Part shown: piece after piece, positions 34,261 through 63,770 of the stretch
Position numbering within the stretch: position 1 is the first letter of the stretch
Layout of the letters: the number at the start of each line of letters is the position of its first letter
From: Reyranellaceae bacterium
GTDB lineage: Bacteria > Pseudomonadota > Alphaproteobacteria > Reyranellales > Reyranellaceae
Assembly (NCBI GenBank): GCA_022844045.1
Contig: JALHMM010000018.1
Location: 18,292 to 82,291, forward strand
Direction: 5' to 3'
DNA length: 64,000 nt
Notes under the pieces: model-generated
The model's input: the letters and a program-made list of their open reading frames with translations, nothing else
Database searches by the model: none
Told to the model about the DNA's origin: nothing
Made by a program: the position numbers and the translations under genes

Positions 34261-35468
34261 ACTATGAAGCCTTCTTCCGCCGGCAGTTGGACGGGCTGCA
34301 TGCCGAAGGTCGCTACCGGGTCTTCGCCGACCTTGAGCGCCAGGCGGGCTCCTTTCCCCGTGCCACCCACTATTGCGACCGGGGCCAGGCGCCCGTGACG
34401 GTCTGGTGCTCGAACGACTATCTCGGGATGGGGCAGCATCCGCTGGTCCTCGGCGCCATGCATGAGGCGCTCGATCGTTGCGGCGCCGGCGCGGGCGGTA
34501 CGCGAAACATCGCCGGTACCAACCACTATCATGTGCTGTTGGAGCGCGAGCTTGCTGATCTGCATGGCAAGCAGAGCGCGCTGCTGTTCACGTCGGGATA
34601 TGTGTCGAACTGGGCGAGCCTTGGCACGCTCGCGTCGCGCATGCCGGGCTGCGTCGTGCTGTCGGATGCGCTGAACCACGCCTCGATGATCGAGGGAATC
34701 CGGCATAGCCGCGCCGAGACCCGGGTGTTCGCGCACAACGACCCGGCGGACCTCGCGCGCAAGCTGGCTGATCTCGATCCGTCGCGGCCCAAGCTCGTGG
34801 CGTTCGAGTCGGTGTACTCGATGGATGGCGATATCGCGCCGATCCAGGAGATTTGCGATGTCGCCGAACGGTACGGCGCGATGACCTATCTCGATGAAGT
34901 CCACGCCGTCGGCCTTTATGGTCCGCGTGGCGGCGGCGTGGCGGAGCGCGACGGTCAGAGTCACCGACTGACGGTCATCGAGGGCACGCTGGCGAAGGCG
35001 TTCGGCGTCGTCGGCGGTTACATCGCCGCGTCCGAGGCGCTGTGCGACTTCGTGCGCAGCTTCGCCTCCGGCTTCATCTTCACCACGGCGCTGCCACCGG
35101 CGAGCGCGGCCGGCGCCCTGGCGAGCATCCGTCACCTCAAGGTCAGTGGCGCGGAACGCGCGCAGCAACAACAGCGGGTCGCCAGCCTGCGTCGCCGCCT
35201 GGACGCGGCGGGCTTGCCGTACCTGCGCAACGAAAGCCACATCGTGCCCGTCATGGTGCGCGATCCGGTGCTCTGCAAGCGCATCAGCGACCAGCTGCTC
35301 GAGGACTACGGCATCTACGTGCAGCCGATCAACTATCCGACGGTCGCCCGCGGCACCGAGCGGCTGCGCATCACGCCATCGCCGCTGCACAGCGATGCCG
35401 ACATCGACCATCTTGTGTCATCGCTGTCCGCCATCTGGTCGACGCTCGGGCTGCGGCAGGCGGCGTAG
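34257..35468 (+). CDS. hemA: 5-aminolevulinate synthase
   Basis: [28 protein letters not shown]...[54 protein letters not shown]. Confidence 0.97.
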
Positions 35469-35491
35469 TCAAATCGGTGCGGGGTACCCTC

Positions 35492-37408
35492 ATGACCAGG
35501 AATTCCCGACTACTCGACCAGATCATCGAACCCGCGGATCTTCGTCAGCTCGGCGAAAGCGAGCTCGGCCGCCTCGCCGACGAGCTGCGGGCGGAGACGA
35601 TCGACGCCGTCTCCGTTACCGGCGGGCACCTCGGCGCCGGCCTTGGCGTCGTCGAGCTGACGGTGGCCCTGCACTATGTCTTCGACACCCCGACGGATCG
35701 GCTGATCTGGGATGTCGGCCACCAGGCCTACCCGCACAAGATCCTGACGGGCCGTCGTGATCGCATACGCACGCTGCGCCAGGGCGGTGGCCTGTCGGGT
35801 TTCACCAAGCGCGCGGAGAGCCCCTATGATCCGTTCGGCGCGGCGCACAGCTCGACCTCGATATCCGCCGGGCTCGGCATGGCTGTGGCGCGCGACCTTG
35901 AAGGCCGCAAGAACAACGTGATCTGCGTCATCGGCGACGGCGCGCTGTCGGCGGGAATGGCTTATGAGGCGATGAACAACGCCGGCTCGATGGATGCGCG
36001 GCTGATCGTCATCCTCAACGACAACGATATGTCCATCGCGCCGCCCGTTGGCGCCATGTCTGCCTACCTGGCGCGGGTCCTGTCCGGGCGCACCTACCTG
36101 TCGCTGCGCGAGATTGCCAAGCAGGTCACGTACAAGCTGCCGAAACGGCTGGCCCGGCGTGCCGCCCAGACGGAGACCTTCGCACGAAGCTTCTGGACCG
36201 GCGGCACGCTGTTCGAAGAACTCGGCTTCTACTATGTCGGGCCGATCGACGGCCACGACCTCGGACATCTGCTTCCGGTTCTGCGCAATGCGCGCGACGC
36301 TCCAAACGGTCCGATCTTCATCCATGTGGTGACGCAGAAAGGCAAGGGCTACGCGCCGGCCGAGAGCGCCGAGGACAAATACCATGGCGTGGTCAAGTTC
36401 GATGTGGTGACCGGAAAGCAGGCCAAGGCTCAGGCTTCGGCTCCGGCCTATACCAAGGTGTTCGGGGATGCCCTCGTCGCCGAAGCGAGCCGGGATCGCC
36501 GGATCGTCGCGATCACGGCGGCGATGCCGAGCGGCACCGGCCTGGATGCCTTCAAGCGGGCTTTTCCGGATCGCTTCTTCGATGTTGGCATCGCCGAGCA
36601 GCACGCGGTCACGTTCGCGGCCGGTCTTGCGACCGAAGGCATGAAGCCTTTCGCGGCGATCTATTCGACGTTCCTGCAGCGCGCCTATGACCAGGTTGTG
36701 CATGACGTCGCGATCCAGCGCCTGCCCGTGCGCTTCGCCATCGATCGCGCCGGGCTGGTAGGCGCGGACGGACCGACCCATGCCGGCTCGTTCGACGTTG
36801 GATATCTCGCGTCCTTGCCCGGCTTCGTGGTGATGGCGCCGGCCGACGAGTGCGAGCTCGTGCATATGATGGCGACGGCGGCGGCGATAGACGACCGGCC
36901 GTCGGCCTTCCGCTATCCGCGCGGCGACGGCACCGGCGCGACCTTGCCCGAAAAGGGCGTGCCGCTGCCGATCGGCAAGGGGCGGATCGTCCGCGAAGGC
37001 ACTACCGTCGCCCTGCTTTCCCTGGGGACCAGGCTCGCCGAATGCTGCAAGGCCGCGGAGCAGCTCGCGCGCTTCGGCCTGTCGACGACGGTGGCCGACG
37101 CGCGGTTCGCCAAGCCGCTCGACACCGATCTCGTGCTGCGCCTGGCGCGCGAGCACGAGGTCCTCGTCACGATCGAGGAAGGCGCGATCGGCGGCTTCGG
37201 ATCCCATGTCCTGCAGCTGCTGAGCCAGCATGACGCGCTCGGCGGCGGGCTCAAGGTCCGGCCCATGGTCCTGCCCGACGTCTTCATCGATCAGGACAGT
37301 CCGGCCGCGATGTATGCGAAGGCCGGGCTCGACGCCGACGGAATCGTCCGGACGGTGTTCGAGTGCCTGGGGCGGCAGGTCGGGTTGCGTGCGGGCCACC
37401 TCGCCTGA
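35492..37408 (+). CDS. dxs: 1-deoxy-D-xylulose-5-phosphate synthase
   Basis: [51 protein letters not shown] 35492. Confidence 0.96.
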
Positions 37409-37435
37409 GTCGCGAAGGTCGGGCCGGGGATCGCA

Positions 37436-37985
37436 ATGCAGGCGATCCTCGCTGAGCCATACGGCTTCTGCGTCGGCTTCGTTCGCGCGATCGATCTCCT
37501 GCGCAAGTCGATCTACGTCGGCAGGATTGTCCATCGGGGAGAAGAGCACGCCGGACTGCACGTGCCGATCCTTGAAAGAGCACTCTGGGACGAGGTTCAG
37601 GCAATGCTGAAGCGCAATCGCCAAGGTGAACGGGGACCAGTCGGTCCGCAGCGGCTGGCAGCAGCCTGTTGACGGGCCAGCTTTACGATGATCGCGGTAA
37701 CCTCATGAGCCCCTCCCATACCTGGAAGCGGGGCCCCATCTGTCGTTACCAAGTAAGCTAGGCGCTATTGCAGTACAGGCGCAGGCCGGTGGATCGATCC
37801 CGCGCGTGGCTGCGGCAGCGATCGCGGGACTGGCCATAGATCGAATACTGGCGTGGAGCCGGGAGGCGGGGGAGAACCTGACCGGTGCAGTGAGACCGTC
37901 CGAGGTAGTCGCAGCCAGGGTTGCTCGTGTCGTGCTGGGCCGTGACCGGGTCACAATCGATCTCTCTGGTGCCACCGGCGGCGAC
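37436..37985 (+). pseudogene. IspH/LytB-like N-terminal stub joined to a degenerate C-terminal half of a serine recombinase
   Basis: MQAILAEPYGFCVGFVRAIDLL (IspH-like PRGFCAGV.RAI) then RKSIYVGRIVHRGEEHAGLHVPILERALWDEVQAMLKRN; after a frameshift LTGQLYDDRGNLMSPSHTWKRGPICRYQVS*ALLQYR; after another GGSIPRVAAAAIAGLAI...VARVVLGRDRVTIDLS. Confidence 0.72.
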
Positions 37986-38066: not shown

Positions 38067-38141
38067 TGGCTGGGGCGCCAGGATTCGAACCTGGGAATGG
38101 CGGAATCAAAATCCGCTGCCTTACCGCTTGGCTACGCCCCA
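38067..38141 (-). tRNA. tRNA-Gln(UUG), CCA encoded
   Basis: Reverse complement TGGGGCGTAGCCAAGCGGTAAGGCAGCGGATTTTGATTCCGCCATTCCCAGGTTCGAATCCTGGCGCCCCAGCCA folds as a cloverleaf; anticodon loop TT-TTG-AT. Confidence 0.95.
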
Positions 38142-38254
38142 TAGATAAGCGCTTCTGGAAATATCAGATGGTTAAGCCATAGCCGTGTATACAATTCCGC
38201 ATATAGAATCGAGACTCGTATGCCATTTCCTATACACGAAGACACCCTCACCCC

Positions 38255-38700
38255 ATGGCGAGATACCCGGGCCTATTCCTGAACATCCGTGACGGACTCT
38301 AACTCGATCGAAACGCAGCCCCCGACGCGGTGCGAGACGTAGTCGGAAAGGCAATGTGGATCAAGTTATTCGGCACGACGGATAGGCGCGAGGCGGAAAG
38401 CCGCTGATCTATGGTCGGCGTGGAGTTCAAGTTGGTGGTCGCCCAAGCGGAGGCCGGTCCCGGCTGGCCCGGGATCAGCGTTGAGCAGGCCGATCGTGCA
38501 CATGTCGCGAAGGTCCGCGCGTCGGTTCTCAGCTGACCTTCAACAGCCTGCGGCACACGGCAAGGATCAAGGCGCGGACCGTGGTGGTCCCGGAAGAAAA
38601 ATCGATGACATCGCTGGACGCGGCAGCGTCATTCAGGGACGCCGCCATGGCGACCACGCGCTGGTCGCGCCGAATGCGGCTATCGACAAGCCGAGCTCCC
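38255..38700 (+). pseudogene. Decayed tyrosine-type phage integrase (N-terminal and C-terminal fragments)
   Basis: MARYPGLFLNIRDGL*...VRDVVGKAMWIKLFGTTDRREAESR*; then FNSLRHTARIKAR.VVVPEEK in one frame and KDQGADRGGPGRKIDDIAGRGSVIQGRRHGDHALVAPNAAIDK in another; HxLRHT box visible; internal stops, frameshift, missing middle. Confidence 0.65.
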
Positions 38701-38951
38701 GATCCAGGTCAAGCCGTGGCGCTGAAGCGCAGACAACGTACCTCGGACAAAGCCGTCTCGCTCGTGGTCAGACTCATTGAGTTCGGCCAGTTCCTCCGAG
38801 CTTCCGCATGAGGCCTGTTACGTTGAACCGTCGCAATTCCCGGCCCGCGATAGACTTGAGCGCGACAATGTCATGGCGATGCAGAAAATCTACGTGACAG
38901 ATGTTCGACCCATACTGGAGGATCAGCTCACGCAGAAGAGGGAGGCACCGC

Positions 38952-62446: not shown

Positions 62447-63067
62447 CACTGCTCCCGTCGATATGCTTGTCAATGCTGCGGCTACGGCGTCCCGCCGATT
62501 GGGCGCGGGACACTGTTTCGCTACAATGCAATCGACATGCCTCGGTTGCCCGGCCGTCAGCCGGCGCAGACGCTTGAGATTGGCAACGGGCCTTTCGGTC
62601 CCGGGACACAAGCGGATTGAACTCTGTTTTTGGCAAGTTTGGGGCGAGAACCCTTCGTCGTTGAAGGTTCGCTGGACTGTCTTGTCACAGAAATAGCACC
62701 GTCGCCAAATTGACAGATGGAAGCCTAGTGCTAAGCGGTTGCTGCGTTGCCACTGCACGGGCGGCGTCCTCGCATTGCCGAGCGTGGTGGGGTTGCGCGC
62801 TTCACCTGTTGGCGGAGAGACGCCGAAGCAGTTCAGGGACAGATCGAACCCGTGACACGAACCGAGAGCCTGGCACTTAGTTGTGTGCCTCCGCAGCTGG
62901 CACCAGGGTTCGTGCTCAGTTAGCGATCCCCGAGGAGTAGTCGGCGTGATTCACGTTGCGCAGGCACGGGCGCGCGCGGGCACGACTGTCTGTTGGAGTA
63001 CGGCCCCGCCACGACGATCCGCAACCGCTTCAATCGGTGTCGAAGCGGGGCGTCTGGGAGGGTGGCC

Positions 63068-63583
63068 TCAGGATGGCGGCGCCACGCCGCGCAGCACGTC
63101 GGCCGGCACGAAAGTGGCGTCGGCGTAGAGCAAGGCGACCGCCGCAGGATCCAGCGCGACATCCGAGATCTGGCCGACAACGATGGTGTGCGTGCCCGCC
63201 ACCATCGTGTTGACGGTTTCGCAGGCGAAGGTCACCGGGCAGCCGAGCAGGGTTGGCACGTCGCCGATCATTGTCCGCCACTCGCCCAGCCCGTCGAAAC
63301 GCGCGTCGCCTTCGACGCCGTCCATGCCGGCGAAACGCTCGGCGATCTTGCGATGCTGAGGCGCCAGCACATTGACGCAGAATTTTCGGCTGGCGACGAT
63401 CAGCGGATGCGCGCTGGCCGAGCGGTTGACGCAGACAAGCAGCTGCGGCGGATCGGCCGAGACCGAGCACACCGCGGTCGCCGTCAGCCCACCGCGCTCG
63501 CCGGCGTGACGCGTCGTGATCAAGGTCACGCTGGCCGCCAGGTGGCGCATGCCCTTCTTGAAGGCGACCGGATCGCAGGTCAT
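63068..63583 (-). CDS. Flavin reductase family (FMN-binding) protein
   Basis: FKKGMRHLAASVTLITTRHAGERGGLTATAVCSVSADPPQLLVCVNRSASAHPLIVASRKFCVNVLAPQH. Confidence 0.92.
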   Translation of the reverse strand: MTCDPVAFKKGMRHLAASVTLITTRHAGERGGLTATAVCSVSADPPQLLVCVNRSASAHPLIVASRKFCVNVLAPQHRKIAERFAGMDGVEGDARFDGLGEWRTMIGDVPTLLGCPVTFACETVNTMVAGTHTIVVGQISDVALDPAAVALLYADATFVPADVLRGVAPPS

Positions 63584-63770
63584 CACCGCTTCCTCTTTAC
63601 GCTGGCCGGCAGAGTGGGGGATCACCCGGCGCGACGCAACCGGAGTCGGGCGCTGTGCGAAATGAGGGGATGATCACGTAGCTGAATCGCTCGACCGAGC
63701 ATCGCGCGACCGTCCGTCAAGCGGGCGATCGTGGTTGATCGGGCCGCCGTGACAAGGGCACCCTGCGGCC

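Follow-up and report, generated by a model that had tools for sequence, protein, structure and literature searches.

The 64 kb of DNA analysed here (the window) belong to contig C18 (82,291 bases) and reach to the end of that contig; the source is a Reyranellaceae draft genome in 144 contigs (92% complete, 5.8% contamination), and the gene order at the tRNA-Gln junction has this single contig as its basis. An intact tRNA-Gln(UUG) lies on the minus strand at 38067-38141 (ARAGORN; Rfam tRNA 65.8 bits, E 4e-13). With one match in the whole assembly, it is the sole copy found, and it should still be functional. A tRNA-Glu that ARAGORN also reported at 35508-35587, within dxs, has no Rfam support and is probably false.

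The 5' side of the tRNA, and not the usual 3' side, is adjoined by a decayed tyrosine integrase of the DUF6538/Phage_integrase type (38252-38725, plus strand) with two stops, frameshifts and two large internal deletions. When the intact integrase of the same-genus genome G002 (P0001) is used as a tblastn query, the relic resolves into four collinear plus-strand pieces in three frames: residues 24 to about 90 at about 38252-38450, with two in-frame stops; residues 257-274 at 38468-38521; residues 469 to about 480 (LTFNSLRHTAR) in another frame; and residues 493-523 (KIDDIAGRGSVIQGRRHGDH...) in a third. About 166 codons (91-256) and about 194 codons (275-468) are missing. The best piece matches P0001 with an E value of 1e-27, and a whole-genome search with the integrase recovers the relic at 62% identity (E 6e-23), with one TGA and one TAA. 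At the DNA level, the window and G002 share 73% identity over 420 bp (E 2e-58), in an alignment that begins in the 3' flank of the tRNA, spans the tRNA gene and the intergenic stretch, and runs into the integrase N-terminus. Homology of this degree lies far beyond chance. Taken alone, the relic stays below the cut-off in the Phage_integrase (PF00589)/DUF6538 (PF20172) profile comparison (17.2 against 27 bits).

The photosynthesis gene cluster (PGC) ends 3' of the tRNA. Its last intact gene is dxs (35465-37408, plus strand; TIGR00204 804.7 bits), the start of which is approximate, the open reading frame opening at 35042. This gene is followed by the truncated 5' stub of a PGC-borne ispH of about 20 codons (MQAILAEPYGFCVGFVRAID; 37430-37494, 65 bp, plus strand), which matches the ispH directly after dxs in the PGC of genome G069 (76% over 63 bp, E 8e-10), itself scoring 323 bits against TIGR00216. 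In G069, this intact PGC-borne ispH exists besides a housekeeping ispH, the two being 52% identical to each other. Homology to ispH ends at 37494, and at 37496 begins the frameshifted C-terminal remnant of a large serine recombinase (37496-37830, plus strand), which aligns by tblastn with a 524-aa homologue in genome G019 in two pieces and two frames (37496-37630 and 37633-37830; 58% and 46% identity, E 8e-20) and scores weakly against PF07508 (20.4 bits against a cut-off of 21.1). The opening bases of the region initially annotated as a serine recombinase scar (37430-37494) are the start of ispH. The intact G019 gene (L076:7612-9492) lies on the 3' side of a tRNA-Gln(CUG), in the same orientation, converging on the tRNA, and may represent a second tRNA-Gln-associated element. 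To the left of the PGC (G000:C18:1-18300, L042) are genes for the RuBisCO large subunit, fructose-bisphosphatase and magnesium chelatase.

Beyond the integrase relic lies an exopolysaccharide (EPS) block, defined by protein families and by collinearity in relatives, that extends from an EpsL-like protein to a lipoprotein-like gene, 'X' (38901-62758). It is followed by a junction gap (62764-63067) and by a flavin reductase gene (63068-63625, minus strand; PF01613 123.8 bits), the gene that as a rule directly precedes tRNA-Gln. The tRNA-Gln(UUG) follows the flavin reductase on the same strand in 43 of 46 Reyranellaceae loci, at a spacing of 26-176 bp in 38 loci and of 1.4-6 kb in five; in the remaining three, the sequence available up to the locus end (0.9-3.3 kb) contains no tRNA-Gln. 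The five longer inserts are found in other family members (loci L134, L135, L136, L164 and L170). The window pair stands 24.9 kb apart and encloses the entire EPS block.

The initial annotation had thus read the locus correctly in its main features: the tRNA-Gln(UUG) with an adjacent decayed tyrosine integrase and the serine recombinase scar are all real, and two dead recombinases do surround one tRNA, the tyrosine type on its 5' side and the serine type on its 3' side. Both sets of remains are scars rather than working parts. Since the flavin reductase-tRNA pair is split by the EPS block and the PGC ends in an ispH stub and a dead serine recombinase, the junction is a true rearrangement hotspot. 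Each of the four members of the genus has different surroundings 3' of the tRNA, and tRNA-Gln(UUG) is a hotspot of integration and rearrangement in Reyranellaceae, a family whose members bear names including Reyranella, Vineibacter and 'Enhydrobacter'.

An intact prophage at the same tRNA

Genome G002 carries an intact version of the window integrase (535 aa, DUF6538/Phage_integrase) at the same tRNA-Gln and on the same side, with domain scores of 35.6 and 29.5 bits, above both cut-offs (PF00589/PF20172). This integrase is the terminal gene of a prophage of 30,606 bp that encodes a terminase large subunit, a head-tail adaptor, and virion, tail and tail fibre proteins, with a GC content of 0.61 compared with 0.67-0.69 in the flanks. 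Both prophage ends carry a 40-bp repeat (40/40, 100% identical) that corresponds to the 5' half of the tRNA through the anticodon loop. Directly beyond the far end lies the same flavin reductase gene as at 63068-63625 of the window, and joining the G002 flanks in silico gives a native upstream region and tRNA as in G001 and in G003, a metagenome-assembled genome of the same genus as the window genome (K_DeepCast_35m_m2_067, VGCZ01000023). The G002 prophage is therefore of the rare 'reversed' type: it rebuilds the tRNA's 5' half and parts the tRNA from its native upstream sequence.

For an element of this orientation, the tRNA 3' end is the wrong half in which to look for a repeat. The initial annotation had looked to a copy of that 3' end as a mark of the far PGC or EPS boundary, and the window contains none; the only other site for it in the genome has two mismatches and belongs to a tRNA-Gln(CUG) type on another contig. 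The 5' half, on the other hand, is present in the window (38103-38142) as a homologue of the 40-bp attachment-site repeat. Next to it, a phage-derived intergenic stretch (38142-38251), within the 73% alignment to the G002 prophage end, takes the place of the native tRNA upstream sequence of G001 and G003, which is absent there. Promoter scans upstream of the window tRNA gave no match to the sigma-70 consensus.

Of the second end, no trace was found: the 5'-half repeat does not recur in the window, in the rest of the assembly or near the flavin reductase. The junction gap, the expected place of the native tRNA promoter and of the second attachment site, contains no repeat, tRNA remnant or homologue, and native tRNA upstream sequence was not found beside the flavin reductase. 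Between the integrase relic and the flavin reductase there are no phage genes, the space being occupied by EPS genes. The window holds the stub of a 5'-restoring element, not a whole element. Because the second attachment site and all other phage genes are missing, a former prophage body in the window is something we infer.

No close relatives of the G002 integrase were found in the genome contigs, in IMG/VR or in 385 genomes across the class, and phage records gave weak matches only. Distant DUF6538-type integrases of the family (about 32% identity) were considered as further reversed elements and rejected: wherever a tRNA is near enough to be the target (tRNA-Arg, tRNA-Glu or tRNA-Ser), the integrase has the canonical 3' position.

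Origins of the EPS and PGC neighbours

Five further genomes of the family (G002, on contig C10, and G001, G005, G009 and G011) carry the EPS genes in collinear order, at about 80% identity within the genus and about 60-65% outside it, so that the divergence of the block follows relatedness. The relatives share no EPS neighbours in the 5-10 kb examined on each side. The block is thus an old cassette of the family, which relatives have in other places. Because the block is old and collinear in the family, its position on the 5' side of the window tRNA is best read as relocation rather than import.

The site of the block differs between related species. In G002 (G002:C10:94398-94703, L053) a tRNA-Phe(GAA) precedes it, 230 bp separating the tRNA 3' end from the start of the block, while in the window it lies at tRNA-Gln. 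In G003, the end gene X (80% nucleotide identity) lies 620 bp from tRNA-Gln, on the 3' side (L016:6933-8428); the contig then ends near an IS-like sequence, cutting the locus off, and X is the only EPS remainder there. The block might then have been cargo of, or an island moved by, the 5'-restoring integrase. The layout flavin reductase-attR-EPS-integrase-tRNA is exactly what the remains of such an element would be expected to look like, the order and orientation are those of the G002 prophage with EPS genes replacing the phage body, and the variable tRNA sites (with the end gene alone in G003) fit a mobile block. Yet neither the window nor the assembly contains an attR, the G002 EPS locus has neither an integrase of the prophage kind nor a tRNA-Phe repeat at its far end, no tRNA was found in the examined EPS flanks of G001, G005, G009 and G011, and EPS divergence resembles that of resident genes. 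We therefore consider this explanation unlikely, although the least unlikely of the alternatives to our main reading.

The order in G003 can also be taken as a starting point. If the EPS block had first lain on the 3' side (flavin reductase-tRNA-X-EPS), and if its far end had carried an orphan 3' piece of the tRNA, a 5'-restoring phage integrating there would have created a second whole tRNA-Gln, and the original beside the flavin reductase could then have been lost. Such a two-step relocation would account for the absence of a tRNA or native promoter between the window flavin reductase and X, and for the phage-type sequence upstream of the window tRNA. It requires several steps, however, and neither an orphan 3' fragment nor a double-tRNA intermediate is seen in any genome, which leaves it rather improbable. 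A bolder combination, in which a 5'-restoring phage rebuilt the sole tRNA-Gln(UUG) at the far EPS end, thereby moving an essential tRNA under a new promoter, while the EPS block hops between tRNA genes (tRNA-Phe and tRNA-Gln) in relatives, strikes us as distinctly improbable.

The PGC is sporadic: PGC-type BchH occurs in 3 of 75 Reyranellaceae genomes and in none of the other three members of the genus. This distribution, together with the place of the PGC next to the tRNA 3' end, from which a recombinase relic separates it, favours the earlier proposal that the PGC and/or the EPS block came from outside by integration at this tRNA. In a BchH tree, however, the window sequence forms one clade with those of the other two Reyranellaceae PGCs (support 100/100), and dxs and HemA are 84% and 87% identical to their G069 counterparts at the amino acid level, much like the housekeeping ispH of the same two genomes (84%). 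Given these identities and the BchH clade, the PGC data argue against a recent import from elsewhere at this tRNA; transfer within the family would be possible. The lack of a 3'-end repeat, a PGC edge that is a cut inside ispH instead of an att site, and an EPS block native to the family likewise count against outside import, which we regard as very unlikely. The proposal of arrival or rearrangement thus survives in its second half: rearrangement is upheld by the EPS block splitting the tRNA from the flavin reductase and by the cut in ispH, whereas arrival from outside is opposed by a phage integrase, a family-native EPS block and the BchH clade. The comparison with relatives divides in the same way, the PGC-tRNA-EPS order being unseen in them, in favour of rearrangement, and the PGC tree fitting the family, against import.

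A gene order seen once also raises the question of whether the contig fuses pieces of different organisms near the tRNA. The assembly is a contaminated draft, and the tetranucleotide make-up of the PGC and EPS parts differs slightly (r 0.86-0.91). Against such an assembly or binning artefact, an EPS-flavin reductase join without a tRNA would demand a tRNA-Gln elsewhere, and the sole copy found is that of the window; furthermore, only the genus of the window genome has the integrase whose decayed form lies at this tRNA site, and the PGC part resembles the G002 chromosome as much as the EPS part does. An artefact is, in our estimate, the least probable of the explanations considered.

A proposed history and its known counterparts

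The account that we favour, and hold to be probable with considerable room for doubt, combines a reversed-orientation phage, its decay to a stub, a rearrangement of the EPS block and a separate encounter of a serine-recombinase element with a break in the PGC. A temperate phage of the DUF6538 type would have recombined at the anticodon loop of tRNA-Gln and supplied its 5' half; the crossover point is suggested by the 40-bp repeat. The integrase gene would thereby have come to lie next to the 5' end of the tRNA, with a phage-borne region now upstream of the latter. These events can be read from the intact G002 prophage and would extend to the window by homology, phage sequence presumably now driving the window tRNA-Gln. 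In the window lineage, the whole prophage would once have been present, its body would have decayed to the integrase stub and the far attachment site would have been lost. The native EPS cassette would then have been set between the stub and the flavin reductase by a chromosomal rearrangement, a mechanism that we propose for a position that is directly observed. Separately, an element with a serine recombinase, located 3' of the tRNA, would have become joined to the PGC where ispH was broken; the ispH stub is plainly there, and the order of events is our likely reconstruction. Against this account stands gene X of G003 on the 3' side of the tRNA, for which a single 5'-side insertion gives no account, and this order is the main fact that our best explanation leaves unexplained. 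The missing second attachment site and phage genes, the negative sigma-70 promoter scans and the reliance on one contig of a draft genome also count against it.

Integrations that restore the 5' part of a tRNA are seldom reported in bacteria, and here two related genomes hold, at one and the same site, an intact prophage and a fossil, while a conserved gene pair shows what the site looks like when empty. Searching for tRNA 3'-end repeats alone overlooks such elements. The locus also shows that tRNA-Gln(UUG) can keep upstream sequence of phage origin long after the rest of the phage is lost.

The window integrase is a scar left by an element whose kind is rare but already known. Elements in reversed orientation that recombine with the 5'-distal part of a tRNA were described by Zhao and Williams (2002), and CalSub-E1 in a tRNA-Ser is an example, as cited in PMC6563490. 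Like these, the G002 prophage duplicates the 5' part of a tRNA and has its integrase on the 5' side; unlike them, the target here is tRNA-Gln(UUG) in Reyranellaceae, the element is a tailed phage, and the window retains only the integrase stub. Canonical prophages and islands that restore the 3' end share the tyrosine integrase by a tRNA and an attachment site within it, but the integrase here is on the 5' side and there is no 3'-end repeat. SpyCI of Streptococcus pyogenes (PMC3430984) similarly enters a gene that the cell needs, at its 5' end, and brings an island-borne promoter, although the target, mutL, is a protein gene and the promoter takeover at tRNA-Gln is presumed. Finally, the relic 3' of the tRNA resembles large serine recombinases (PF07508), and its intact homologue in G019 likewise lies 3' of a tRNA-Gln, there of the CUG type, whereas the window keeps only a frameshifted C-terminal fragment.
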